Shown: positions 15,776 to 27,998 of the stretch, piece after piece
Numbering within the stretch: position 1 is the stretch's first letter
Layout: the number at the start of each line of letters is the position of its first letter
Notes under the pieces: generated by a model
What the model was told of the DNA's origin: nothing
The model's database searches: none
What the model saw: only the letters and a program-made list of their open reading frames with translations
Position numbers and translations under genes: made by a program
Assembly: GCA_017883065.1 (NCBI GenBank)
Contig: JADGOG010000013.1
Coordinates: 1 to 35,030, forward strand
Length of the DNA: 35,030 nucleotides
Direction of reading: 5' to 3'
Source: Acidimicrobiales bacterium
GTDB taxonomy: Bacteria; Actinomycetota; Acidimicrobiia; Acidimicrobiales; RAAP-2

Positions 15776-17677
15776 ATGACCACTCCTGAGGACCCGACCA
15801 CATCGGTGCTCGGCTGGATGGCGCAACGTCTGGCCGAAGCCGCCCTTCCCGGAGCACCTCCGACCGACGAACAGCTCGAGGCGGAGCTGGACCGTCGCCG
15901 GCGGGAGTCCGAGTGGGGCCCGGATCCGTGGGCCACGCCCACCCGCTACTGGGAGTGGAAGCACCTCTGGCACGTCGAGCGGATCGAGCACCCCGAGAAG
16001 TTCGCCGACGACCTGCCCACCGACGGCCCGCTGCTCAGCATCGTCGTGCCGGTCTACCGGCCGTCCCCGTGGTTCTTCGAGGAGTGCGTGCTCTCGGTGA
16101 TCGCCCAGACCTACCGGAACTGGGAGCTCTGCCTGTGCGACGACGGATCGGGGGACCCCGAGCTGACCCGGGCGATGCAGGCGTTCGCCGCCCGTGACGG
16201 CCGGATCAAGGTGCTGGCCCTCGAGGAGAACGGGGGCATCTCCCGGGCCACCAACCGGGCGCTCGACGAGGCCGGTGGCGAGTTCGTGGTCTTCGTCGAC
16301 CACGACGACCTGGTGGAGGCCTCGGCTCTCGGCGAGATCGCCAAGGTGGTCCTGTCGGCCGACGACGCCGACGTCATCTACACGGACGAGGACAAGCTCG
16401 ACGGGGTCGACCGGCCGTACCATCCCCATTTCAAGCCGGACTGGGATCCCGACCTCCTGTTGGCCTATCCCTACCTCGGGCACCTGACCGCCATCCGGCG
16501 TGAGCTGGTCACCAGGGTCGGGGGGCTCCGACCGGAGTTCGACGGCAGCCAGGACTACGACCTGATGCTCCGGGCCACCGAGCAGGCGCGTCGGGTGGTG
16601 CACATCCCCAAGGTCCTCTACCACTGGCGCACGGTGGCCGGCTCGGCCGCCGGTGACCCCGATGCCAAGCCGTGGGCCCACGCCGCCAGCCGGAGGGCCC
16701 TCCAGGACGCGGTCCGTCGGAGGGGGATCGACGGTGCGGTGGAGTCAGGTCCGTTCACCGGGGCCTACCACGTGCGTCGGGAGGTCCAGGGCTCCCCCAG
16801 CGTGAGTGTGATCATCCCCTTCCGCGACCAGGCGGCACTGACCGTCACCTGCCTCGAGTCACTCGATCGCTCGCCCGGCCATCCGATCAGCGAGGTGGTG
16901 CTGATCGACAACGGGAGCGTGGAGCCCGAGACCCGCGAGTTGAGGCGTCGGCTGGAGGCGAGGCCGAGGACGCGGGTGCTCGAGTATCCGGGCCCGTTCA
17001 ACTGGTCCGCCATCAACAACCTGGCTGCCGCGAGCTGCACCACGGACATGCTGCTCTTCCTCAACAACGACATCGAGGCGACCTCGGAGGGTTGGCTGAA
17101 GGCCATGGTGGAGCTGGTCCAGCGGCCCGAGGTGGGGGCGGTCGGCGCCCGCCTGGTCTACCCGGACGGCAAGATCCAACACGCCGGGGTGGTCCTCGGG
17201 ATGCAGGGGATCGCCACCCACCTGTTCAGCGGGATGAGCGGCGACCTGGGCGGGTACATGGGCTGGGACCGCGTGGTCCGCTCCTACAGTGCGCTCACCG
17301 CAGCCTGCATGCTGGTCCGGCGCCCCGTGTTCGAGGAGATGGGCGGGTTCGACGAGGCCTATCCGGTGGCCTTCAACGACCTCGACTTCTGCATCCGGTT
17401 GACCCGGGCCGGGTATCGGCTCTTGTACACCCCCCACGCCGAGCTGACCCACTACGAGTCGGTGAGCCGTGGCCTGTCCGGGTACTCGGCCGACTTCCAG
17501 GAGTTCCTCTCCCGCTGGTGGAGCCTCCTCCAACAGGACGACCCCGCCTACAACCGGAACCTCGGCCGGTTCGCCACCTGGTGCCCGTTGCGCAACCCGG
17601 GGGAGGACGAGCAGTGGCTGGAGGAGATCGGCCGCCTGGTCCCGGTGACCGCGCCGGCCGACGGGGTCGGCGTCTAG
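15776..17677 (+). CDS. Tandem-domain GT2 glycosyltransferase
   Basis: A 633-residue cytoplasmic enzyme with two family 2 glycosyltransferase domains. The first starts near 86 (LLSIVVPVYRPS) with CDDGSGD at 121-127 and the metal-binding DHDD at 175-178. The second starts near 342 (SVSVIIPFRDQ) with NND at 430-432, KIQHAGVVLG, and the acceptor-side pattern FNDLDFCIRL followed by HYESVSRG. Such two-domain enzymes build repeat units of rhamnose-rich or O-antigen-like glycans by two activities. Residues 1-80 are charged and Trp-rich and could contact partners. Its stop shares the CTAG at 17674-17677 with the converging propeller gene. Sugar specificity is not readable. Confidence 0.9.
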   Translation: MTTPEDPTTSVLGWMAQRLAEAALPGAPPTDEQLEAELDRRRRESEWGPDPWATPTRYWEWKHLWHVERIEHPEKFADDLPTDGPLLSIVVPVYRPSPWFFEECVLSVIAQTYRNWELCLCDDGSGDPELTRAMQAFAARDGRIKVLALEENGGISRATNRALDEAGGEFVVFVDHDDLVEASALGEIAKVVLSADDADVIYTDEDKLDGVDRPYHPHFKPDWDPDLLLAYPYLGHLTAIRRELVTRVGGLRPEFDGSQDYDLMLRATEQARRVVHIPKVLYHWRTVAGSAAGDPDAKPWAHAASRRALQDAVRRRGIDGAVESGPFTGAYHVRREVQGSPSVSVIIPFRDQAALTVTCLESLDRSPGHPISEVVLIDNGSVEPETRELRRRLEARPRTRVLEYPGPFNWSAINNLAAASCTTDMLLFLNNDIEATSEGWLKAMVELVQRPEVGAVGARLVYPDGKIQHAGVVLGMQGIATHLFSGMSGDLGGYMGWDRVVRSYSALTAACMLVRRPVFEEMGGFDEAYPVAFNDLDFCIRLTRAGYRLLYTPHAELTHYESVSRGLSGYSADFQEFLSRWWSLLQQDDPAYNRNLGRFATWCPLRNPGEDEQWLEEIGRLVPVTAPADGVGV

Positions 17678-19716
17678 GACGTGGCCAGGGCGACAGCCGG
17701 CGCCGTGGCCACCCGACCCGCCAGCAAGGTCGAGCTGGCCGTGCCGTACCCGGTCACTACGCCGGTGGAGCTCATCACCCAGTAGCCGAAACCGTCGAGG
17801 GCCACGGCCATGTCCGCCACCGGGGCATCGTTGGCCACCGACGGGGCGCTGAACATCTTGGCGTCGCCGTAGGCGGCCAACGTCCCCTCCTTGGTGACCA
17901 GGTAGTACCCGAGCCCGTTCGGCGTGGTGGCCATGGCCGCCACCGTCTGGCCCGAGGGCACCGTGGCGCTGCCGTAGTCCTGGGCGTTGCCGAAGGCGCT
18001 GACCGTGCCGCCCGCCGTGACCAGGTAGTACCCCCGTCCGTTGGGGATGGCGACGATGCTCACCACCGGACCGCTGGTCGTGGTGGTCGTGGTCGAGCCC
18101 AGTGAGCCGGTGCCGAATCCCTTGACCGAGCCGTTGGAGCGGGCGACCCAGTAGCCGCCGCTGGTGGCATCCACCGCGATCCCGACCACGCCCGAGGTCG
18201 ATGCCGAGCCGCGGTTGACGGCGTCGCCGTAGGTGGTCACCCGGCCGTTGGCCGCCACCAGGTAGTAGCCGTGTCGGTCCGGGGTCAGCGCCATGCCGGT
18301 GATCGACCCGCCGGACCCCGAGCTGGGCAACGAACCGGCGTTGTGGGCGGCGCCCCCGGTGGTGACGTGACCCTTGGCGTCGACCACGGTCAGACCCTGG
18401 CAGGTGGCCGAGGCCGAGGCCACCGAGGTGGTCGACGGCCCACCGGAGATGGGTGCGCTGGTGTCCCACAGGCGGTAGTCCCACACGCCCCACTTGTTGC
18501 CGATGTTGTTGTCGGCCACCGCGTTGAGGACCTCGAGTCGGTTGGAGGAGGGGAGATCACCGTTTGCGGTCCGGACGATGCCGGAGTTGTGGTTGTACGT
18601 GTAGCCCGACAGGCACTGGCCATAGGTGCCTTGCGGCTTCCACGTCCCGCTCCCCTGGAGCAGGCCACCCAGCCCGATGGTGGCCTCGGTGACCACCGGG
18701 GTGACCGGCGGCCCGTTGGTGGTGGTGTCGTAGGGGCCATCGTCGAAGGACATGGCTACCCGACGAGCGGCCGGGTCGTAGGCGATCGAGGCGTCGTGGG
18801 GCCACACGCCCAGCCCGTTCAGGGTCACCGCCTCGACCTTCCCGCCGGAAGGCAGGGTGAGGAAGCACGTGGTGCACGGGCCGGCACTCGGGACGTTCGA
18901 GAGGTTGATCTCACGCAGCACCAGGCCCTCGGCCGGGTTGGCGTCGGTGCCCGGGCTCCCCGAGTTCCCCATGTAGGTGAGGAGGACGTGGCCGCCGCCG
19001 ATCGAGGTGGCTGCGGGTTCGCCGAGGCAGTAGAAGGTCTGGCCGGAGGCCTTGTCGACCGGGCAGTTGTTGGGATACGAGTTCTGGCCGAAGTCGGCGG
19101 AGGTCTCGATGAACGGGGTGAGGTCGGCCTTCCACGGGCCGGCGGGGGAGTTGGCGAAGGCCAGACCGATCACGTTGGTCGAGTTGCTGGCCACGGCCTC
19201 GGCGGTGAAGAACATCGCCCACTTGTAGGGCTTCCCACCGAAGTGGAACTGACCGCCGATGACCTCGGGCTCGCAGGTGTGGACGGAGAAGAAGGCGTTG
19301 GACGGACCGTTCTCGGGTCCGAAGACGATGGTGGGCTTGGTGTAGTGCCACTGGCCGTTGGACTGATGGCCCACCGAGAGGAAGATGTGGTCCTTCACGT
19401 AGTTGGTCTCCTGGTTCCCGCAGTAGAAGACGTAACGAGTGGTGGCGTCTGTCTGCACCGTGCTCGGGGCGTAGGTGTAGAAGAGCCCCTTGCCCGGGTC
19501 GATCCCGGTGTACGAGGTGTGGGTCGGCGTGTACGCCAGCAGGGTGGCATGGGCGGGGTGGGCGGCGGCCCCGGCGGCGGTGGGGACGAGCACGGCAAGC
19601 ACACCGAGGGCGGCGGCGACGGCAAGACGGATTCGGCGTGGAACGGGGGTCTCCTCTCGTCTCCGGCCCTGGTGATCGCTGGGGGGCGGAGGCAGATCTG
19701 ACGGTGGGGCAGGCAC
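17674..19716 (-). CDS. Secreted beta-propeller protein with six C-terminal repeats
   Basis: About 680 residues. A signal peptide (RRIRLAVAAALGVLAVLVPT, cleavage near AGAAA-HPAHA) precedes a glycosidase-like beta-propeller region with features such as FFSVHTCEPEVIGGQFHF, AFANSPAGPW and HDASIAYD, similar in style to GH43-type folds. After residue 440 come six repeats of about 40 residues with the pattern GYYLV..G.V..YG.A, as found in many exported actinobacterial proteins. It may bind or trim a surface sugar. GTG 19716 is the nearest canonical start and gives a long Pro-rich leader. A good ribosome binding site (19651-19657) instead precedes a GTT codon at 19644, right at the signal peptide. 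The start is therefore uncertain. Confidence 0.7.
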   Translation of the reverse strand: MPAPPSDLPPPPSDHQGRRREETPVPRRIRLAVAAALGVLAVLVPTAAGAAAHPAHATLLAYTPTHTSYTGIDPGKGLFYTYAPSTVQTDATTRYVFYCGNQETNYVKDHIFLSVGHQSNGQWHYTKPTIVFGPENGPSNAFFSVHTCEPEVIGGQFHFGGKPYKWAMFFTAEAVASNSTNVIGLAFANSPAGPWKADLTPFIETSADFGQNSYPNNCPVDKASGQTFYCLGEPAATSIGGGHVLLTYMGNSGSPGTDANPAEGLVLREINLSNVPSAGPCTTCFLTLPSGGKVEAVTLNGLGVWPHDASIAYDPAARRVAMSFDDGPYDTTTNGPPVTPVVTEATIGLGGLLQGSGTWKPQGTYGQCLSGYTYNHNSGIVRTANGDLPSSNRLEVLNAVADNNIGNKWGVWDYRLWDTSAPISGGPSTTSVASASATCQGLTVVDAKGHVTTGGAAHNAGSLPSSGSGGSITGMALTPDRHGYYLVAANGRVTTYGDAVNRGSASTSGVVGIAVDATSGGYWVARSNGSVKGFGTGSLGSTTTTTTSGPVVSIVAIPNGRGYYLVTAGGTVSAFGNAQDYGSATVPSGQTVAAMATTPNGLGYYLVTKEGTLAAYGDAKMFSAPSVANDAPVADMAVALDGFGYWVMSSTGVVTGYGTASSTLLAGRVATAPAVALATS

Positions 19717-19742
19717 ACCCAGACGGTGTACCCGACCGCCAG

Positions 19743-19748
19743 AGATTA
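19743..19748 (-). promoter_or_regulatory. Minus-strand -10 box TAATCT
   Basis: TAATCT read on the minus strand, 27 bases upstream of GTG 19716 and about 99 upstream of the GTT 19644 alternative. It is the only good -10 candidate for the propeller gene. Confidence 0.4.
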
Positions 19749-19857
19749 GCGCCCAGCCGGGGGCGCTCCCAGTCACCCCTCGCGGCTCCGCCTGGCCACG
19801 TGGCGATTCCTCCTGGTCAGCGCCGGTCCGCCACCCGTCGGTCCGAACCGGGTTGGC

Positions 19858-19863
19858 TAGAGT
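19858..19863 (+). promoter_or_regulatory. Plus-strand -10 box TAGAGT
   Basis: TAGAGT precedes the GT2 gene, giving a leader of about 45 bases to TTG 19916, with an AGAGGA ribosome binding site at 19901-19906. Confidence 0.4.
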
Positions 19864-19915
19864 CTGGGACGCTCCCCGGTGACCGACAGTGCCCGCGAGG
19901 AGAGGACGGAGTGCC

Positions 19916-21034
19916 TTGCCTGATCCAGCGACAGTGACCGTTGTCACCAGGACACAGGACCGCACCTTGTTGCTGGACCGGGCCATCCGGAGCGTCATGC
20001 AGCAGTCGATGGGCGATCTGGAGATGGTCATCGTCAACGACGGGGGTGACCCCGGCCCGATCGAGGCGGTGGTCGAGGCCCGCAGGCACGAGGTACGGGG
20101 GCGGGTCACCCTGGTCCACCACGAGACGGCCCGGGGCATGGAGGCGGCCACCAACGCCGGCCTGCGGGCCACCGACTCGCGCTATGTCGCCGTTCACGAC
20201 GACGACGACACCTGGCATCCGCGGTTCCTCGAGTTGGCGGTGGACGCCTCGGAGCGCACCGGCGCCATGGGCGTGGTCACCGCCACCGAGGCCGTCTACG
20301 AGAACACCGACTACGGGGACATCCGGCTCTTCGACTGGTTCCGCTTCGACCCGATGGCCGATGTGGCCCCGCCCGACGCCGGAGACGCGACCCGACCGCT
20401 CCTCCCGCCCACCAGCCTGTTCCGACTGCTCTCGGGCAACCAGTTCCCCCCCTGCTCGTTCGTCTACCGGCGGGAGGTGCTCGACGAGGTGGGCTACTAC
20501 GACGAGCGGCTCCCCGTGCTGGGCGACTGGGACTTCAACATCCGCTTCCTGTTGTCCCACGACATCCACTTCCTCGATGAGCCGCTGGCCTACTACCACC
20601 ACCGCAAGGGCCACTCGGGCGAGTTCGCGAACTCGGTGAGCAGCGACGGCAACGTCCACGACCGGGTGCGGGAGGAGTTGCTCAACCGCTACCTGCGCCA
20701 GGACCTCCAGCGAGGGGTGGTGGGCATCGGCGTGCTCGCCAACCTCCTCCACGACCTCCGGCGCCAGCGGGCCGACGACCTGGCCGCACAGCGGGCGGTG
20801 GCGACGACGATGGACTCGATCGACCGGTCGGTCGGGGCCCTGTCCGGCTACGCCGAGCAGCTGGTCCAGCGGGACGGCAGGTCGGGCGGGGTCTCGGACC
20901 CCGGTGCCGCCGGCCCGGCCGACACCTCGGTGCGGCCGCTCGCGGACCGGGGGTGGCGCAAGCTGCTCGGCTCCTCCCTGAAGGCGTCGGACCCGTCGAG
21001 GGGTGGACCGCCCCCGGCGGATCCCCCGGCATGA
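19916..21034 (+). CDS. GT2 family glycosyltransferase
   Basis: A 372-residue enzyme. The nucleotide-sugar domain begins at once (ATVTVVTRTQDR), with VIVNDGGD at about 38-45, ATNAGLRATDSRYVAVHDDDDTW and the metal-binding acidic cluster D95-D98. The pattern LPVLGDWDFNIRFLL and YYHHRKGHSGEFANSV is the acceptor-side half. The C-terminal 80 residues are charged and partly helical. TTG 19916 has AGAGGA nine bases upstream and GGAG four bases upstream; GTG 19889 in the same frame would add nine residues without a ribosome binding site. Its stop overlaps the next start as ATGA at 21031-21034, so it is coupled to the degenerate HAD-like protein. The two probably act on the same glycan. Confidence 0.85.
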   Translation: MPDPATVTVVTRTQDRTLLLDRAIRSVMQQSMGDLEMVIVNDGGDPGPIEAVVEARRHEVRGRVTLVHHETARGMEAATNAGLRATDSRYVAVHDDDDTWHPRFLELAVDASERTGAMGVVTATEAVYENTDYGDIRLFDWFRFDPMADVAPPDAGDATRPLLPPTSLFRLLSGNQFPPCSFVYRREVLDEVGYYDERLPVLGDWDFNIRFLLSHDIHFLDEPLAYYHHRKGHSGEFANSVSSDGNVHDRVREELLNRYLRQDLQRGVVGIGVLANLLHDLRRQRADDLAAQRAVATTMDSIDRSVGALSGYAEQLVQRDGRSGGVSDPGAAGPADTSVRPLADRGWRKLLGSSLKASDPSRGGPPPADPPA

Positions 21035-22590
21035 GCCGTCTGCACGACCTGACGGCCGACGCCGACGTCCTCGCCATCGAGTTGGTGGGCACCTTGGTGG
21101 TCCGTGACCTGTGTCGACCGACCGACGCGTTCCGGCTGAGCCAGGAGTGCTTCAACGCCGATTCGGGTCGCTACCTCGCCACTGAGCTGGCGCCGATCCG
21201 GATGTCGGCGGAGGCCGCCCTGCGCCACGAAGCCGAACGGGCCGGGCGCTCCCCGTCGTCGGTCGGCCTCGAGGCCATCTACGCCCGGGTGTCCGACCTC
21301 CTCCTGCTCGATCCGACCACCACCGCTTCGTTGGTCGCCTCCGAGCTCGAGACCGAGCGGCGCCTGCTCCGGGTGGACCCGGTGATGCTCGAGCTGTGCA
21401 TGGGCGCCGTCGGACGGGGGGCGGCGGTGGTGGCAGTGGGCGACACCCATCTGCCGGCCGCCTTTCTGGGCGAGGTGCTGTCCGACGCCGGGGCCACCGT
21501 CCCCTCCGACCTGTTGGTCTCCTGCGAGACGGGTACCTCGATCACCGAGGGGCCCCTGTGGGAGGACCTGGCCGGCCGGTTCGACGGACGGAGCGTCGTC
21601 CACGTGGGGACCGCTCGCCGCGCTCAGGCGGCGGCCGGGCAGCACGGGATCCGGACCTGCCTGGTGCCCGACGCGCTGGAGGAGTTCCGGCATCAGCGCG
21701 GGCGAGGGGCCGCGCTCAACGGCGACATCGTGTTCCGGCATCTCGGGACCGACGGGACCATGTTGAAGAACGTGCACCGGAGCCTGCTCAACGGTCTGGT
21801 GGCGCATCGGGAGGTCGACGGTGTCCCCGGGGACGGCGGTGACGGTGACCTCGCCGTCACCGCGTCCCAGGTCGGGTTCGGCGCCCTGGGCCCCCTGATG
21901 ACCGCCTTCGTCCAGTGGGTGCACCGGGCCGCCATCCGGTCCGGGTGCGACCGCCTGCACTTCGCCGAGGCGGACGGCGCCTTTCTGGCCTCGGCCTACC
22001 GCACCTGGTGGGGCGACCAGGCGCTGGCCACCGGCCCGACCGGCACCGAGCCGGCTGCCGGGGGCGGGTCCGCGGTGGTCGCCACCGGGTGGGAACCGGC
22101 CGCCCGATGGTGGGGTGACGGCGCCGGTTCCCGAGGTGCGACGGCCCTGCAGCCGACCACCCGGCTGTGCTTCGCGGTGGGAGAGGATGGCGGCGCGCCC
22201 GACTGCGACGTGGTCACCCGAGGGTTCATCGACGCCCGGATCGAGGACGAGCGCCCGCTCGTCTCCGACCTGCTCGAACGGTCGCGGGGCTTCCTCGAGC
22301 GGTGCCTGGTGGCAGCCCCGTCCGCGTCCACCACCGGGGCCCCGTCCGAAGGTGGTGACGTCGACCTGGTGGGCGTCCTCCAGCAAGGGGCGCTCGAGTA
22401 CCTGGCCAGGTTCCGCCGGTTGACCGAGAGGATGCCAAGCACCGTGTCGATCGTCGATCCGCATACCGCCTGTGACCCGATGGTGGCCGCCCTCGGCTCA
22501 CCCACACCCCGGACCGAGACGCTGGTGGACCGGGTGCGACGTGCGCCCGCCCCGCCCGCTCCCGCCTCCCAGCCCGGAGCGCCTCGCTAG
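21031..22590 (+). CDS. Degenerate HAD-like protein (predicted pseudophosphatase)
   Basis: A 519-residue protein that aligns by eye along most of its length with the HAD fusion encoded convergently next to it. The nucleophile motif VDVFDTLLWR of the partner is IELVGTLVVR here (Asp to E17, the second Asp to Gly). SDT becomes GDT (D138 kept), the motif III Lys becomes T172, and VGDNAEAD becomes VGTARRAQ (two acidic residues lost). The second domain also matches: TAFVQWVHRAAIRSGCDRL against the partner's GYAHWVRQKAVELGSERI. It therefore keeps the fold pattern but lacks most HAD catalytic residues, so it may be a regulator, scaffold or binding protein. It is not broken: there are no frameshifts or internal stops. 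ATG 21031 overlaps the GT2 stop. Confidence 0.7.
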   Translation: MSRLHDLTADADVLAIELVGTLVVRDLCRPTDAFRLSQECFNADSGRYLATELAPIRMSAEAALRHEAERAGRSPSSVGLEAIYARVSDLLLLDPTTTASLVASELETERRLLRVDPVMLELCMGAVGRGAAVVAVGDTHLPAAFLGEVLSDAGATVPSDLLVSCETGTSITEGPLWEDLAGRFDGRSVVHVGTARRAQAAAGQHGIRTCLVPDALEEFRHQRGRGAALNGDIVFRHLGTDGTMLKNVHRSLLNGLVAHREVDGVPGDGGDGDLAVTASQVGFGALGPLMTAFVQWVHRAAIRSGCDRLHFAEADGAFLASAYRTWWGDQALATGPTGTEPAAGGGSAVVATGWEPAARWWGDGAGSRGATALQPTTRLCFAVGEDGGAPDCDVVTRGFIDARIEDERPLVSDLLERSRGFLERCLVAAPSASTTGAPSEGGDVDLVGVLQQGALEYLARFRRLTERMPSTVSIVDPHTACDPMVAALGSPTPRTETLVDRVRRAPAPPAPASQPGAPR

Positions 22591-25286
22591 TCCCCCCGGT
22601 GGCCGAGCCGCCGCCGGAGTGACCCATAGGCACGACGGGGCAGGGCGCTCGCCCTGAAGAGACGGGTGCGGTAGACGGCATCGAGCTCGTTGCGGACGAC
22701 GGCCAGCTCGGCTTCGGCGCTGATCCCGGTCGAGGCGGATCCCCCCGGCACCGGCAGGAAGGCGCCGGCCAGCGCCATGCGGAGCGAGCCCTCGGTGCCC
22801 ACGGTCGGGAGGTCGACGACCAGAGCGCTGGCTCCGTCGGTGGCCAGCACCCCGGTGGCCGACCATCGGGCACCGGTCGCGGTGAGGTCGTCGGGGTCGT
22901 CCCCCTGCTGCCAGCGGTACTCGGCGGTCACCCCGCCGTCCACGTCGGTGGCCACCACCTCGAAGTGATCCAGCCGGACCAGGGCGGGGAGCTGGGCAGG
23001 CGACACCACCACCTGACCCACCCCGGCTGCCGAGCCGCTCCACTCGATGAGGCTGAGCCCATGGAGATTGATGGCGATCGGGAGCAGGGTGGTGCTCAGC
23101 TCGTCCCCTCCGCCGGGACCCCGGAGGGAGAGTCGGAGCTGCCCCGCTTCCGAGGTGGTGCTGAAGCGGCCGGGCTCGGCCCTGGCCTCGCGCATCAACA
23201 GGACCGAGTCCGCCGTCTCGTTGTCGATGAGGGCGGCGGCCCCCCCGACCCAGTACAGCTCACTCATCGGTGACCAGTGCAGGTTCTCGGCCGTGCGGTG
23301 GCGCAGGGTGGGCAGGTAGCGGGTCGGCACCAGCCGGTCGGAATCCTCGCTGCCGAAGTTCTCCTCGTGCTCCCACCAGCTGAAGGCCTCGGCCTCGTCG
23401 AGGTTGGGCTGGGAGACGAAGCGCCCGAGGATCCGCCGCAGCATGGCCCGTCCCGACGGTGAGGTCTCGAAGATCGTCGGGTGGCTCCGGTCGCGGCTGC
23501 GGTACTCGAGCCACTCGGCGTGGTAGGCGCCGACGCCGGCCTGGACCAGGTCGCGCATGGCCGTCTCCTCGGGCCCGGCGGACGACGGGGCCAGCACCGG
23601 CGTCCCGTCCTCGGCCATCTCGAGCAGGGAGCCCTGGCCACAGGTCGAGACCAGTTCGACGATCTCGGGTCCGCCGGTGATCGACGACACGTCGAAGGGG
23701 GCGGTGCCCACGGTGCCGAGGAAGCCTTCGATGACCACGCCGCGCAGGGCCCGGTCCGACGCACCGATGTGGGCCAGCAGGTAGAGGCCGCGCAGGGAGA
23801 GCTCGGACCCGTCGGCACGGAGCATGGCGAGGAGGGACTCTTGGATGGATCCGGACCATCCCACGTCGACCACCACCACCGGACCGCTCCCCGGGCCGGC
23901 CGCGTCGACGAAGTGGTCGACGAGCCGGCGACGGGCCCGGGCCGACCTGTCCACCACCTTGTCCACCAGGGCCGGTCGGCCGAGCACCAGGTCGACCAGG
24001 GCCTCGCCCGCCTGACGCCCCCGGCCGCTGGCCTCGAACCGTTCCATCAATTGGTCGAGCTCGGGGACGTCGGCGGCCTCCAGGCCCCACGACTCCAGGA
24101 TCCTGGCGGGCGACGGTGCCCGCAGCCGGTCGAGGAACGAACGGAGCTCGGCCTCGGATCCCTCGTAGATGTCGGCCCGGGCGCATGCCTCGCGGGAGAC
24201 CCAGGCCGTCGCCGTGTTCAGGTGGTGGCTGTCCGCCGCCGCAGCCTGGTCGATGAGGGTCTTGAGGAAGCGGCCTTCGCGCATCAGGCAGACGATCCGC
24301 TCGCTGCCCAGCTCGACCGCCTTCTGGCGGACCCAGTGGGCATAGCCGGTGAACACCGGGCCGAGGACCGCGGTGCCGGTCTCCCAGGCCACCTGGTCCT
24401 GTCCGGCCAGGGATCGAGGCGGCGGCAGGAAGGTGGCCCGCCGCCGCAGCGCGGTGAGCCCGCCGTCACCGTCCAACTCGTCGACCCACGGGCTCGGGTC
24501 ACCCGGGTACCCGAGGATCCGCTCTCGGGAGGCGATGGGGTCGTACCGGTCGGTGTTCAAGGGGTAGTGCACCGCCCGCACGCCGACCCGCTCGGCGCAG
24601 GCCACGTCGGCCTCGGCGTTGTCCCCGACGTGGACCAGTTGGTCGGGCTCGATCCCCAGATCGTCGACGACCGCCTTCCAGAGGCCGGCACCCTTGCCGG
24701 TGCCGTGGTCGCTCGAGGTGTAGACGTCGGAGAAGGCGAGCGTCCCGAGCGGATGGGCGGCGAACAGCCCACGCAGCTCGCCGGCGCTGAAGTAGGTGTC
24801 GGACACCGCGATGAGACGCAGTGACGGCGAGGCCCCCACGACCTGGTCGAGGTAGGCGGTCAGCCGCCCGTCGGCGAAGGTGACCTCCCGTTCGACCGCC
24901 ATCTCCAGGGCGGCCGTCCCTTCGCTTCCGAGGGGGGAGAGGATGCCCGGGGCCAGGACGGCGTGGATCTCGGCCAGGGTGACCTCGGTCGAGCCGTGCT
25001 CGTCCTGCTTCTTCCGCCGTGCCTCGGCCTCGGCCAGGATCCGCAGCCGCGAGTACCCGTACGCATCGATGTGGCCGACCAGGGCACCCTGGTCGGCCAG
25101 CCGGCGCCCGACCAGCAGGTGGACGTCGGTGGGCTTGGGCACCCGCCGCCACAAGAGGGTGTCGAACACGTCGACCGAGAGGACCCGGGTGCGGGCGGAC
25201 CGCACCGCCTCGTCGATGGGCTCGAAGCGTCGGTCCGGAAGCCGCGGGCGCTCGACATGCTCGTCGGAGGTGGTCAAGGGACGCAT
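22587..25286 (-). CDS. Large HAD hydrolase fusion (COG5610-like)
   Basis: An 899-residue protein of glycan clusters. The HAD domain (about 30-250) has motif I VDVFDTLLWR with D39 as likely nucleophile, motif II SDT at 162-164, Lys 198 in GTGKGAG, and motif IV GDNAEAD with D222 and D227, so it looks active. Phe at the second position after the nucleophile resembles haloacid-dehalogenase-type motifs. A long second region follows (GYAHWVRQKAVELGSERI ... MREGRFLKTLI; VVVVDVGWSGSIQESLLAML), typical of HAD proteins in polysaccharide clusters. The C-terminus has a beta-rich region and a basic amphipathic tail. ATG 25286 begins seven bases after the upstream glycosyltransferase stop. The substrate is unknown, probably a phosphorylated sugar or lipid carrier. 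Confidence 0.75.
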   Translation of the reverse strand: MRPLTTSDEHVERPRLPDRRFEPIDEAVRSARTRVLSVDVFDTLLWRRVPKPTDVHLLVGRRLADQGALVGHIDAYGYSRLRILAEAEARRKKQDEHGSTEVTLAEIHAVLAPGILSPLGSEGTAALEMAVEREVTFADGRLTAYLDQVVGASPSLRLIAVSDTYFSAGELRGLFAAHPLGTLAFSDVYTSSDHGTGKGAGLWKAVVDDLGIEPDQLVHVGDNAEADVACAERVGVRAVHYPLNTDRYDPIASRERILGYPGDPSPWVDELDGDGGLTALRRRATFLPPPRSLAGQDQVAWETGTAVLGPVFTGYAHWVRQKAVELGSERIVCLMREGRFLKTLIDQAAAADSHHLNTATAWVSREACARADIYEGSEAELRSFLDRLRAPSPARILESWGLEAADVPELDQLMERFEASGRGRQAGEALVDLVLGRPALVDKVVDRSARARRRLVDHFVDAAGPGSGPVVVVDVGWSGSIQESLLAMLRADGSELSLRGLYLLAHIGASDRALRGVVIEGFLGTVGTAPFDVSSITGGPEIVELVSTCGQGSLLEMAEDGTPVLAPSSAGPEETAMRDLVQAGVGAYHAEWLEYRSRDRSHPTIFETSPSGRAMLRRILGRFVSQPNLDEAEAFSWWEHEENFGSEDSDRLVPTRYLPTLRHRTAENLHWSPMSELYWVGGAAALIDNETADSVLLMREARAEPGRFSTTSEAGQLRLSLRGPGGGDELSTTLLPIAINLHGLSLIEWSGSAAGVGQVVVSPAQLPALVRLDHFEVVATDVDGGVTAEYRWQQGDDPDDLTATGARWSATGVLATDGASALVVDLPTVGTEGSLRMALAGAFLPVPGGSASTGISAEAELAVVRNELDAVYRTRLFRASALPRRAYGSLRRRLGHRGD

Positions 25287-25293
25287 CGTAGCG

Positions 25294-27171
25294 TCACCGA
25301 AGCGACGCCCAGGGGAGCCCGGGGTACTTGGAGCGGAAGTACTCCCGGCGCGCAGCGAGGTCGGGACCAGGGAGTTCGGTGACGCACGGGTCCACCGCCC
25401 GGGTCTGCCCCACCAGGGTGGAGGAGAGCTGGCCCCGGAGCCCCAACGCGGCAAGGTGGAGCCAGAGGTCGTACTCGACCGAGCTGCCCGGCTGGTCCGC
25501 ACCGGGGTCGAATCCACCGGCTCGGCGCCAGGCGTCCTTGCGGACCAGTGCCATGGCGCCGACACAGTCGTCCACGACCAGCCGGGACACGTCCCAGGGA
25601 AGGAACCCGTGCAGGCCGGGGTGATCGCCGAGGGTGGCGGTCACGCCATAGGCGAAGGCGGCGTCGGTGCCCTCCAGGGCGAGGAGGAGCCGCAACAGCC
25701 CACGGGGGAAGAGGGTGCTGTCCGGGTCGAGCAGGAGGACGACCGGGGCGCGGGCCGCCTCGATGCCGAGGTCGAGGGCGGCGGCCCGACCGGCTGCGGT
25801 CGACAGAGCGACCAGCCGGACGGGGAACCCGGGAGCATCCTCCATCAGGGTGCGGACTTCGCCGAGGGCGCGTTCGCTGGCGTGGTCGTCGACCACCACC
25901 ACATCGGCCCGTACCCCGTGGCCGGCCTTCACCGAAGCGACGGCTCGGCGGACGGACGGCGCATCCCCGGTGAGGGGGATGACCACGGTCACCTCGGGAT
26001 CGGCACCCGGCCACTCCGGTGTCTCGGCGGTCGGCGCGTCGAGCCCCGGCATGGGCGACCGCCCGCCATCTCGGACGGGTGGTGGCGGCCCCGTGACGGC
26101 CACGCGCCCGGTCGGCCCGCTCACGGCACCCGCGGACGGCGCACCGGAGCCGGTGTCCGCCGCCACCAGGGGTCGGCGCGTGGCGGGCCGCTGCAGGGCC
26201 TCGGGGATGGCCCGGTCGGCCGGCCGGGGGGCCGCCACCGGGCCTCGGGCCTGCAGGGTGTGCTCCACGGTGTCGAGGAACCGGTCGACGATGTCGACCA
26301 GGGCCAGGTCCTTGCGCACGAAGTCGTAGGCCCGCCGGGCCAGCTCGGCCCGGAGGGCCTCATCGTGGAGGACGGCATCCGCCCGGAGGGCCAGTGCGTC
26401 CAACCCGTCCTGGAGGAAGTGGACCGCCGGCACCAGGGGGGCGAACCCGCCCGACGTCTCGGTCACCACCAGGCACCCGTTGCTGATCGCTTCCAGCACC
26501 CGGACCCATTCGAAGTAGTCGCGCTCACCCTGGTGGACGTTGAGCAGCACGCGGCTGGCGGCCAGGACCTCGTACTTGCGCCGACCCGAGACGAAGTGGT
26601 CCGAGCCTGCGGTGATCGGCCGATCGATCTCGAAGAGCCGCAGGTCGCACTCCCATCCGGCCAGCACCGGTGCGGAACGCGCCAGGAACTCGTCCCGCCG
26701 GGGGGTCAGGGCACCGAGGAAGAGCAGGTCGCACCCCCGTGGAGCGCGGTCGTCACCGCCCCAGGCGTCCCAACCCGGGTGGTAGCCGAGCCGGAGGCGG
26801 TGGGCGTCCACGCCCCGGCGCTGCAGTTCGCGGACCCCTCGATCGTTGATGTCAGCGGCCATCGGTCCATACGAGGTGTACCGGGCGCCGTCCTCGAACC
26901 ACTGGGTGCCCGGCTGCTCGACCCCCACGCAGATGCTGTGCGACGCGGCGCGCACGATGTCGGCCTCGGAGGCACCCTCGTACCGGGTGAAGAACTCGTG
27001 GGGCGCGACCACCAGGTTGACCACGCCGGCCTCGGCTCGGGGGAGCCCCGATGGGCAGAGCTCGACCTCACGACCGGTGGCGCCCACGGACTCGGCCAGG
27101 GCGGCGGCGATCTCCGCCATGTAGACGTTGCCGACCGCACTCACGAAGACCCGGTAGGCGGGCGACGGCAT
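25294..27171 (-). CDS. GT-B / GT2 fusion glycosyltransferase
   Basis: A 625-residue enzyme joining two different glycosyltransferase folds. Residues 1-320 resemble the GT-B proteins of the CgeB/group 1 type (GCDLLFLGALTPRRDEFL, LLNVHQGERDYFEWVRVLEA, then SNGCLVVTETSGG). A Pro/Ala/Gly-rich linker runs from about 320 to 390. A GT2 domain occupies about 392-625 (PEVTVVIPLTGD, VVVVDDHAS, DPD at 482-484, then VGAMALVRKDAWRRAGGFDP). It could add two sugars in sequence to one acceptor. ATG 27171 starts 11 bases after the preceding propeller gene on the same strand, and the HAD gene follows seven bases after the stop, so the three form an operon. Confidence 0.83.
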   Translation of the reverse strand: MPSPAYRVFVSAVGNVYMAEIAAALAESVGATGREVELCPSGLPRAEAGVVNLVVAPHEFFTRYEGASEADIVRAASHSICVGVEQPGTQWFEDGARYTSYGPMAADINDRGVRELQRRGVDAHRLRLGYHPGWDAWGGDDRAPRGCDLLFLGALTPRRDEFLARSAPVLAGWECDLRLFEIDRPITAGSDHFVSGRRKYEVLAASRVLLNVHQGERDYFEWVRVLEAISNGCLVVTETSGGFAPLVPAVHFLQDGLDALALRADAVLHDEALRAELARRAYDFVRKDLALVDIVDRFLDTVEHTLQARGPVAAPRPADRAIPEALQRPATRRPLVAADTGSGAPSAGAVSGPTGRVAVTGPPPPVRDGGRSPMPGLDAPTAETPEWPGADPEVTVVIPLTGDAPSVRRAVASVKAGHGVRADVVVVDDHASERALGEVRTLMEDAPGFPVRLVALSTAAGRAAALDLGIEAARAPVVLLLDPDSTLFPRGLLRLLLALEGTDAAFAYGVTATLGDHPGLHGFLPWDVSRLVVDDCVGAMALVRKDAWRRAGGFDPGADQPGSSVEYDLWLHLAALGLRGQLSSTLVGQTRAVDPCVTELPGPDLAARREYFRSKYPGLPWASLR

Positions 27172-27182
27172 CGACGCGACCC

Positions 27183-27998
27183 CTAGGTCGCCGGCAGAGC
27201 GGCGAAGGCGGCCACCGGCGACGGCATCGAGCCCGGAGGGGCGTGGCCGAGGAAGTAGGCGTCACCGAAGGCCCGGACCGACCCCTTGGCGCTGGCCGTC
27301 TGGTAGCCGAAGGCGTGTCGAGAGGCGCTGAGGCCGATGATCGGGTCGTCCGGTCCGTGCCCCAGGTCGGCGGGGGAGCCGAAGAACGGGGCGTCCCCGA
27401 AGCACAGGACCTGCCCGTCGCCGGTGGCCAACCAGTAGCCGTTGCCGGTGGGCGAGGCGGCCATGGCGACAATGGTGGGGCCGAGCCCGATCCCCGAGGC
27501 CGATCCGCACTCCGGCGCGTTGCCGAGGGCGACGACCTCCCCGCCGGCCGACGCCAGCCAGTACCCGCTGGCGTCCGGGAGCACGGCCATGTCGACCACC
27601 GGCGAGCGCAGGGGTGCCCCGCCCAGCGAGCCGTGGAACCCGGCGTTGCCGAAGGTGAAGATGCCGCCGTCGGACGAGACCAACCAGTATCCGGTTCCGT
27701 CGGTCCGCGCCGTGATGCCGGCCATGGGTGCGGCCAGGTCGAGGTGGGCCGCGTCGCCGTGGACCGGGGCGTCGCCCACCGCCAGCACCGACCCGTCGGC
27801 GGTGGCCACCCAGTGACCGAGGCCGGTGGGAGCGATGGCCACCCCGACGACGCTCCGGCCGGCCAGCCCGTGGCGGACACTGGCGTCGACGGTCACCTTC
27901 CCGAACCCGAAGGTGGTCCCGTCCGTCCCCACCATCAGGTACCCGACGTGGCTCGCCGGACCCTCGTGTTGCGGTACGGCGAGGTCGGTCACGACCAC
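27183..27998 (-). CDS. Six-repeat beta-propeller protein
   Basis: A 271-residue protein made almost entirely of six repeats of about 43 residues, each with the pattern GYWLV..DG.V..FG.A.F.GS followed by a hydrophobic beta segment. Six such units would suit a closed beta-propeller. The same kind of repeat ends the secreted propeller protein at 17674-19716, but here no signal peptide is visible, so it may stay inside the cell or its start may be wrong. GTG 27998 and GTG 27992 are both possible; a 20-codon frame from ATG 28051 ends in a TGA that overlaps GTG 27992. It leads the operon with the GT fusion and the HAD protein. It may bind glycan or a partner protein. Confidence 0.68.
   Translation of the reverse strand: MVVTDLAVPQHEGPASHVGYLMVGTDGTTFGFGKVTVDASVRHGLAGRSVVGVAIAPTGLGHWVATADGSVLAVGDAPVHGDAAHLDLAAPMAGITARTDGTGYWLVSSDGGIFTFGNAGFHGSLGGAPLRSPVVDMAVLPDASGYWLASAGGEVVALGNAPECGSASGIGLGPTIVAMAASPTGNGYWLATGDGQVLCFGDAPFFGSPADLGHGPDDPIIGLSASRHAFGYQTASAKGSVRAFGDAYFLGHAPPGSMPSPVAAFAALPAT

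Follow-up and report, generated by a model that had tools for sequence, protein, structure and literature searches.

The window analysed here is a 35,030-nucleotide stretch from an Acidimicrobiales bacterium (assembly GCA_017883065.1, contig JADGOG010000013.1), and one of its genes encodes a 519-residue protein, P0001, that is a degenerate homologue of the PRP-gPRT ribofuranosyltransferases. In these two-step enzymes a gPRT (CriT) domain moves ribose 5-phosphate from phosphoribosyl pyrophosphate (PRPP) to an acceptor, and a HAD-type PRP (CrpP) domain removes the phosphate (PMC10299916, PMC11127046, PMC12096443; here and below the papers are cited from excerpts). P0001 has lost the active-site residues of its HAD domain together with the loop 1 Arg of its gPRT part, and most of these losses are common to P0001 and its ortholog, P0002, in a second genome of the genus (G007). 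Our favoured reading, to which we give about even chances, is that P0001 is a maintained, non-catalytic, putative subunit of a surface-glycan assembly unit. Coordinates of all features are collected in Table 1.

P0001 is a homologue of ribofuranosyltransferases

Searches of Pfam, NCBIfam and PHROGs gave no HAD match for P0001 at E ≤ 1, and the intact homologue encoded next to it gave weak matches to generic HAD models (Pfam, NCBIfam). The two proteins are nonetheless related: BLASTP aligns them at 26% identity (86 of 332 alignment columns, E = 6e-9 for one comparison), and the alignment ends at residue 321, beyond the HAD domain and short of the C-terminus, in agreement with the initial annotation, which had proposed homology through the HAD domain and the region after it. 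When single sequences were searched against solved structures, the neighbour matched the Thermobacillus composti polysaccharide ribofuranosyltransferase (7SHG, 1e-8) and the Haemophilus influenzae type b capsule polymerase Bcs3 (4.9e-6), and P0001 matched Bcs3 (0.015). A two-row profile of P0001 and its ortholog gave stronger matches, over the HAD part (Bcs3 1.3e-7, 7SHG 0.0054). A 32-row family profile, A3, made of P0001 and 31 relatives of which the majority are motif-intact, gave 1.3e-67 for Bcs3 and 9.4e-59 for 7SHG. Antibody matches of the two-row profile, which involved the C-terminal region with its Gly-rich linker, were set aside as presumably spurious.

AlphaFold2 predicts for P0001 the HAD fold expected in the initial annotation, a Rossmann fold with an alpha-helical cap (mean predicted local distance difference test score, pLDDT, 77.1; predicted template modelling score, pTM, 0.79; block means of 89-97 pLDDT over residues 51-210); the model of the intact neighbour has a mean pLDDT of 81.5 and a pTM of 0.77. 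In Foldseek searches Bcs3 (2.6e-12) and 7SHG (2.9e-11) rank first for P0001, and the same two structures rank first for the neighbour. Because root-mean-square deviations across both models' alignments are 6.7-15 Å, these are domain-wise matches rather than one rigid match. The family is therefore that of the two-step ribofuranosyltransferases (HAD PRP/CrpP plus gPRT/CriT): the homology of P0001, covering the HAD domain and the next ~50 residues, is to PRPP-dependent ribofuranosyltransferases and not merely to HAD proteins in general. The initial description of a pseudophosphatase thus holds for the lost HAD site, but the protein is a relative of ribofuranosyltransferases rather than of a plain phosphatase. 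A phage or plasmid origin was also considered and rejected, as tblastn of P0001 against phage and plasmid collections gave no match.

The HAD site and the start of the gPRT domain have lost key residues

Our active-site alignment holds 57 rows, 51 motif-intact and six "degenerate"; the six were set apart after inspection of the motifs, so that counts of 51/51 describe this split and are not an independent test. Two of the rows (L123 and L124) are nearly identical sequences. In the HAD domain of the motif-intact rows, the nucleophile is D and the motif III residue K in 51/51, motif II has S (50) or T (1), and motif IV has D (28) or N (23) at its first position and D at its second (51/51). In the gPRT domain, R and G of loop 1, R of loop 2, and D and G of loop 3 are each present in 51/51. 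At the nucleophile, motif II, motif III, two motif IV and loop 1 Arg positions, P0001 has E17, G137, I171, T194, Q199 and A314, and P0002 has D, S, I, S, A and P. Of the four invariant residues (nucleophile D, K, second motif IV D and loop 1 R), P0001 keeps none and P0002 keeps one, the nucleophile.

Thus the nucleophile Asp, the motif III Lys and the acidic metal ligands of motif IV that define a HAD phosphatase site are all replaced in P0001. For PRPP binding, the loop 1 Arg is replaced as well (by A314, and by P in the ortholog), although the Asp beside it, D315, is kept, and loops 2 and 3 are unrecognisable. Judged by these residues, P0001 is a homologue and not an active member of the PRP-gPRT family. 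Since they are common to P0001 and P0002, the losses of the Lys, both motif IV positions and the loop 1 Arg took place before the two split; the nucleophile and motif II Ser appear to have been lost only in the lineage of the window, so that the decay was stepwise. The genome is a draft in 235 contigs, and a base error at the nucleophile site is possible.

The HAD-like frame with lost site residues that the initial annotation reported is confirmed, with corrections at motifs II and III. Its placement of the nucleophile at E17 and of Thr and Gln at motif IV agrees with the 57-row alignment, in which the motif III Lys falls at I171 rather than at T172 as proposed. D138, given as the surviving part of motif II, is present; we take it to follow the canonical Ser/Thr position, which is G137, and motif II is lost too. 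The annotation had also reasoned that a pseudoenzyme would be doubtful if homologues kept the catalytic residues, and here the answer is mixed: the G007 ortholog has retained the nucleophile Asp and the Ser of motif II, but the Lys and both motif IV positions are gone. For comparison, CrpP conserves just the first of the two Asp residues in the HAD DXD motif, and K548 is its motif III residue; the CriT residues named include S678, R679, D680, S707, R708, R712 and E818 (PMC10299916).

The C-terminal tail

When a gPRT-domain profile built from the 51 motif-intact rows was run against P0001, it matched residues 276-324 only (domain E 1.4e-11; the test set held 306 sequences, of which 300 were shuffled). 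In the alignment, loops 2 and 3 of P0001 correspond to a gap and to A351, an assignment that is without statistical support and not reliable. The tail that follows is modelled with mixed confidence and contains strands at 346-351, 377-383 and 395-401 plus helices. No match was found, in either direction, between the tails of P0001 and P0002 and those of the other degenerate relatives described below. Two origins are conceivable for the P0001 tail: a gPRT that has decayed until it is no longer recognisable, or a new element.

The second option leads to an alternative for the whole protein, that of a new enzyme or binding protein in which the HAD relic is a platform, while the tail or a remodelled pocket has other chemistry or senses a sugar or sugar phosphate, with no partner involved. 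Such a function would fit a 195-residue tail that is unrecognisable as gPRT and yet conserved between the two orthologs (94 of 205 positions identical over residues 305-512), as well as conserved stretches around the old sites at residues 164-171 (the loop before motif III) and 245-259. However, residues 245-259 are modelled at low confidence, neither ortholog retains the Lys or the motif IV positions, no new domain of P0001 turned up in Pfam, NCBIfam or PHROGs, and the tail is less conserved than the HAD part. With two sequences, these arguments are weak either way. We regard this alternative as improbable, at perhaps one chance in five.

The gene is maintained in a second genome

P0002 is the sole ortholog that we found, at 53% identity over 502 aligned codons. 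Both frames lack internal stops, and the G007 locus has the same three genes in the same relative order: a GT2 glycosyltransferase gene, whose stop lies 5 bases from the start codon of the degenerate gene, and an intact homologue, again convergent with a 4-base overlap. The identity of the two proteins (0.530) far exceeds the neutral expectation of 0.218 (standard deviation 0.017, maximum of 1000 runs 0.275) from a simulation parameterised with the substitutions observed between these two genes at 174 fourfold sites. Rough Nei-Gojobori values of nonsynonymous over synonymous divergence (dN/dS) are 0.40/0.73 for the degenerate gene, 0.24/0.69 for the intact neighbour, 0.20/0.55 for the GT2 gene and 0.20/0.61 for the adjacent repeat protein. 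These comparisons show that purifying selection acted after most of the losses. A loss common to diverged orthologs followed by purifying selection is what marks a maintained pseudoenzyme, and this is the pattern found here, with n = 2 orthologs.

A gene on its way out would also retain an open frame for some time, particularly in a GC-rich genome where stop codons are rare, and function might have been lost recently. The dN/dS of 0.55, above that of the neighbours, the loss of the nucleophile in just one of the two genomes and the absence of stop codons from 19% of the neutral simulation runs all lean that way. Two observations argue in the other direction. The identity is 0.530 against 0.218, although most of the losses predate the split of the two genomes; and the degenerate relatives in another family are constrained too and keep their own gene neighbour (these may be an independent case). 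Ongoing decay is in our view unlikely, about as unlikely as the new function.

Neighbouring genes and distribution

The initial annotation's long uninterrupted frame and its coupling to the GT2 gene by ATGA both stand, the GT2 gene ending at 21034 within the start of the P0001 gene. Pairing with an intact homologue in a glycan cluster stands as well, and is repeated in G007; the annotation did not mention that this neighbour lies on the opposite strand, convergent with the P0001 gene and overlapping it by 4 bases. Its open frame continues to 25565, with the ATG at 25286 taken as the start. This paralogue is, however, not supported as a sister copy. A recent tandem duplication of the neighbour was rejected, because three trees did not accept the pair P0001/P0002 together with the pair of neighbours: forced joining gave approximately unbiased (AU) test p values of 0.00819 (32 rows), 0.000544 (49 rows) and 0.00203 (55 rows), with long branches limiting the test. 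As far as these branches allow, the two adjacent genes are old relatives and not the product of a recent duplication.

Beyond its gPRT domain, the model of the intact homologue has a C-terminal part rich in beta strands (about residues 716-845), together with a helical tail. It is adjoined by a protein with Glyco_trans_1_2 and GT2 matches, for which the compared 38 kb of G007 gave no match over 60 residues. The cassette is flanked on either side by a repeat-containing protein that has no Pfam match, and both of these match the same repeat region of one G007 protein.

Table 1. Features of the P0001 locus and related loci (window coordinates unless a locus is named)
Feature	Position	Strand	Evidence or remark
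Degenerate PRP-gPRT homologue, P0001	21031..22590	+	519 aa + stop
HAD (PRP/CrpP-like) domain, residues 8-215	21052..21675	+	57-row alignment, AlphaFold2 model
Nucleophile position, E17	21079-21081	+	57-row alignment
Motif II Ser position, G137	21439-21441	+	57-row alignment
Motif III Lys position, I171	21541-21543	+	57-row alignment
Motif IV positions, T194 and Q199	21610-21612, 21625-21627	+	57-row alignment
Recognisable gPRT (CriT-like) start, residues 272-324	21844..22002	+	profile and alignment
Tail, residues 325-519	22003..22587	+	expected place of remaining gPRT
GT2 glycosyltransferase	19889..21034	+	Pfam Glycos_transf_2 E 1.4e-19; upstream of P0001 gene, ATGA overlap
Intact PRP-gPRT homologue	22587..25286	-	899 aa; HAD and gPRT motif residues kept
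Glycosyltransferase-like protein	25294-27171	-	Glyco_trans_1_2 and GT2 matches
Repeat protein beside GT2 gene	17674..20172	-	G007 counterpart, also beside GT2 gene, 68% over 513 residues; no Pfam match (17677-20100)
Second repeat protein	27183-27998	-	no Pfam match
Degenerate PRP-gPRT homologues with truncated gPRT	L051:7775-10592, L050:8253-11097, L118:1232-4125		three genomes, another family of the order

At E ≤ 1e-3, P0001 or its profile matched 4 of the 61 genomes searched, of which only G007 holds an ortholog besides the window. In larger searches, which score only the best few candidates per genome, matches at this threshold occurred in 2/172 genomes of the family, 25/397 of the order and 8/396 of the phylum; those of the order and phylum matches that were aligned are mostly motif-intact. 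A pattern search of genome contigs returned 19 matches, one of them a relative (G007). The motif-intact profile matched 26 of the 172 family genomes, at full length only in G000 and G007 and elsewhere as short HAD-region matches. Among the best few candidates per genome, either PRP-gPRT-type gene was found in only 2 of 172 family genomes, and both of these have the degenerate gene with a convergent intact gene. Within the 14 genus genomes, a GT2 ortholog (73% identical) was found only in G007, other matches being ≤42% identical and mostly partial, and all three genes occur together in 2/14. In these searches the pair of GT2 and pseudo-HAD genes, which the initial annotation suggested looking for in related genomes, was found in G007 only. 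G003 has a flanking YfhO-like gene (a match under the Pfam cut-off), and G001 has it in two pieces; the cassette was not found in 39.6 kb of one G001 contig or in 6 kb of G003, contig ends limiting this result.

Partial frames (L036, L040, L049, L094) and a second frame in L030 were dropped before counting, as were duplicates (L076, L078, L080, L087) and loci repeating existing rows (such as L004, L031, L044). L041 was dropped from the first tree and A3 only, L088 and L093 from the third tree, and the fetched loci L052, L053 and L054 were left out. A class-wide search added eight aligned rows (L123, L124, L126, L128-L132), with repeated and short matches left out.

Degenerate relatives in another family

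Of 39 genomes in the family of G513, 18 match a profile built from two degenerate proteins, and in three of them (G241, G513, G917) the match covers most of the length. Their proteins (523-601 aa) keep the HAD nucleophile, the Lys and the second motif IV Asp; their first motif IV residues are E, P and P, and the motif II Ser is replaced by A, A and G. The spacing of gPRT loops 1 to 3 is 53-56 residues, compared with 127-150 in 44 motif-intact rows and with 123-139 in a later set of eight, and the tails match the gPRT profile beyond the gap, so that the three have a clear gPRT deletion. We had considered that P0001 shares this deletion, as the spacing suggested (37 and 52 residues in P0001 and P0002), but these values rest on an alignment unsupported by the profile tests and are not reliable, and the idea was withdrawn when tests with shuffled controls did not confirm it for P0001 and P0002. 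The withdrawal lowers the weight of the subunit and two-family readings and raises that of a new function.

Pairwise identities of 0.412 and 0.332 among the three proteins, against a neutral expectation of about 0.08, indicate constraint. In 3/3 the degenerate gene is divergent from an epimerase-family gene (Pfam Epimerase in the G241 copy) whose copies are 68-78% identical to one another, and which is presumably a GDP-L-fucose synthase. G513 carries an intact PRP-gPRT copy on another contig. In trees of the HAD region, a single clade of the window type with G241, G513 and G917 has support of 28/0 without G917 and 93/80 in a second tree; it is absent from the 55-row tree, in which monophyly of the degenerate clade ties (AU p 0.508). 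The class-wide search matched the five-row degenerate profile in 25 of 395 genomes; among the eight new rows aligned from it, one protein, L131 (from G289, 1069 aa, related to L012), shows no deletion but has lost motif IV as well as residues of gPRT loops 1 and 3, and is possibly another independent loss. A broader reading, which we hold only tentatively and consider a little less doubtful than the two alternatives above, is that there is an unrecognised group of non-catalytic relatives of PRPP-dependent ribofuranosyltransferases, which at least two families of the order have conserved in their glycan loci as structural co-subunits for other glycosyltransferases.

Proposed role

We propose that P0001 has no enzymatic role of its own and serves as a subunit in the assembly of a surface glycan. 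It is probably produced jointly with the GT2 enzyme, whose gene lies directly upstream, and would hold this enzyme and/or the adjacent intact PRP-gPRT enzyme (or the acceptor chain) in place. Known members combine a glycosyltransferase, a PRP and a gPRT module within a single polypeptide or a single dimer, and GT-PRP-gPRT fusions are published (PMC10299916, PMC12096443); by analogy, the GT2 gene and the PRP-gPRT-derived gene coupled to it resemble a GT-PRP-gPRT unit in two genes, of which one such module would have lost its chemistry and retained a structural role. The locus suggests that a disabled copy beside a working-looking one may have been kept as a non-enzymatic helper protein of a surface-glycan pathway. 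From the initial interpretation, this keeps the lost HAD site, the maintained frame and the glycan-cluster pairing, and drops a sister relation of the paralogue and a plain phosphatase as the relative of P0001.

Several results weigh against a subunit role. The top eight Foldseek alignments of P0001 span 332-642 columns at 6.7-12.7 Å, and the identity of the tail is not settled by fold; past loop 1 the gPRT profile gives no match to P0001 and E 0.9 for P0002, both at the level of shuffled sequences. The gene is present in two genomes only, is less constrained than its neighbours (rough dN/dS 0.55 vs 0.33-0.36), and its relatives in the other family have no intact PRP-gPRT gene among the called genes in the 9-20 kb around them. 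Finally, equivalents of the Bcs3 dimer-contact helices are not significantly more conserved than the rest (36/59 vs 223/434, p = 0.21).

This last test bears equally on a regulatory decoy or inhibitor of the intact neighbour, which would act through mixed dimers replacing the normal one. Contacts in Bcs3 run between the phosphatase of one protomer and the ribosyltransferase of its partner protomer (PMC10299916), an arrangement on which the subunit reading also draws, and the equivalent cap helices and a long helix (272-303) are present in the P0001 model. Given the non-significant conservation at the contact elements, a neighbour encoded on the opposite strand, and relatives elsewhere without an intact neighbour in the stretch examined, we consider a decoy very unlikely and prefer the structural subunit.

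Comparison with known systems

PRP-gPRT ribofuranosyltransferases were described recently (papers from 2023-2025; 7SHG was released in 2022), and the members described, in the excerpts cited, are active enzymes. A title and abstract search of mostly open literature found no inactive member of the family and no HAD pseudophosphatase of a glycan locus. If our reading is true, maintained dead homologues show that the PRP-gPRT fold also has a non-catalytic role in glycan assembly, and an intact copy next to a dead one makes it possible to test directly whether such assembly units use scaffold subunits.

The closest known system is Bcs3 (CroT-CrpP-CriT; 8A0C, 8A0M, 9H50), the first profile and fold match for both window proteins, in which CrpP (HAD) is followed by CriT, the PRPP-dependent transferase. 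The absence of the second DXD Asp is normal in the Bcs3 family (PMC10299916). However, Bcs3 is active, whereas P0001 has lost the nucleophile, the Lys and the loop 1 Arg as well as both positions of motif IV, and has no recognisable gPRT past loop 1 and no CroT or SH3b domain. Similarly, 7SHG, which combines a HAD-like phosphatase with a putative ribofuranosyltransferase (PMC10299916), is matched by P0001 in profile and fold but not in its site residues or in a recognisable gPRT past loop 1. Cj1432 of Campylobacter jejuni has a glycosyltransferase domain before PRP and gPRT, much like the GT2 gene coupled to that of P0001, although it is one fused, active polypeptide and the window has two genes and a dead PRP part (PMC12096443). 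An analogy, of principle only, is provided by EryCII-EryCIII, in which a P450 homologue of unrelated fold activates a glycosyltransferase within a heterotetramer (PMC3391682).

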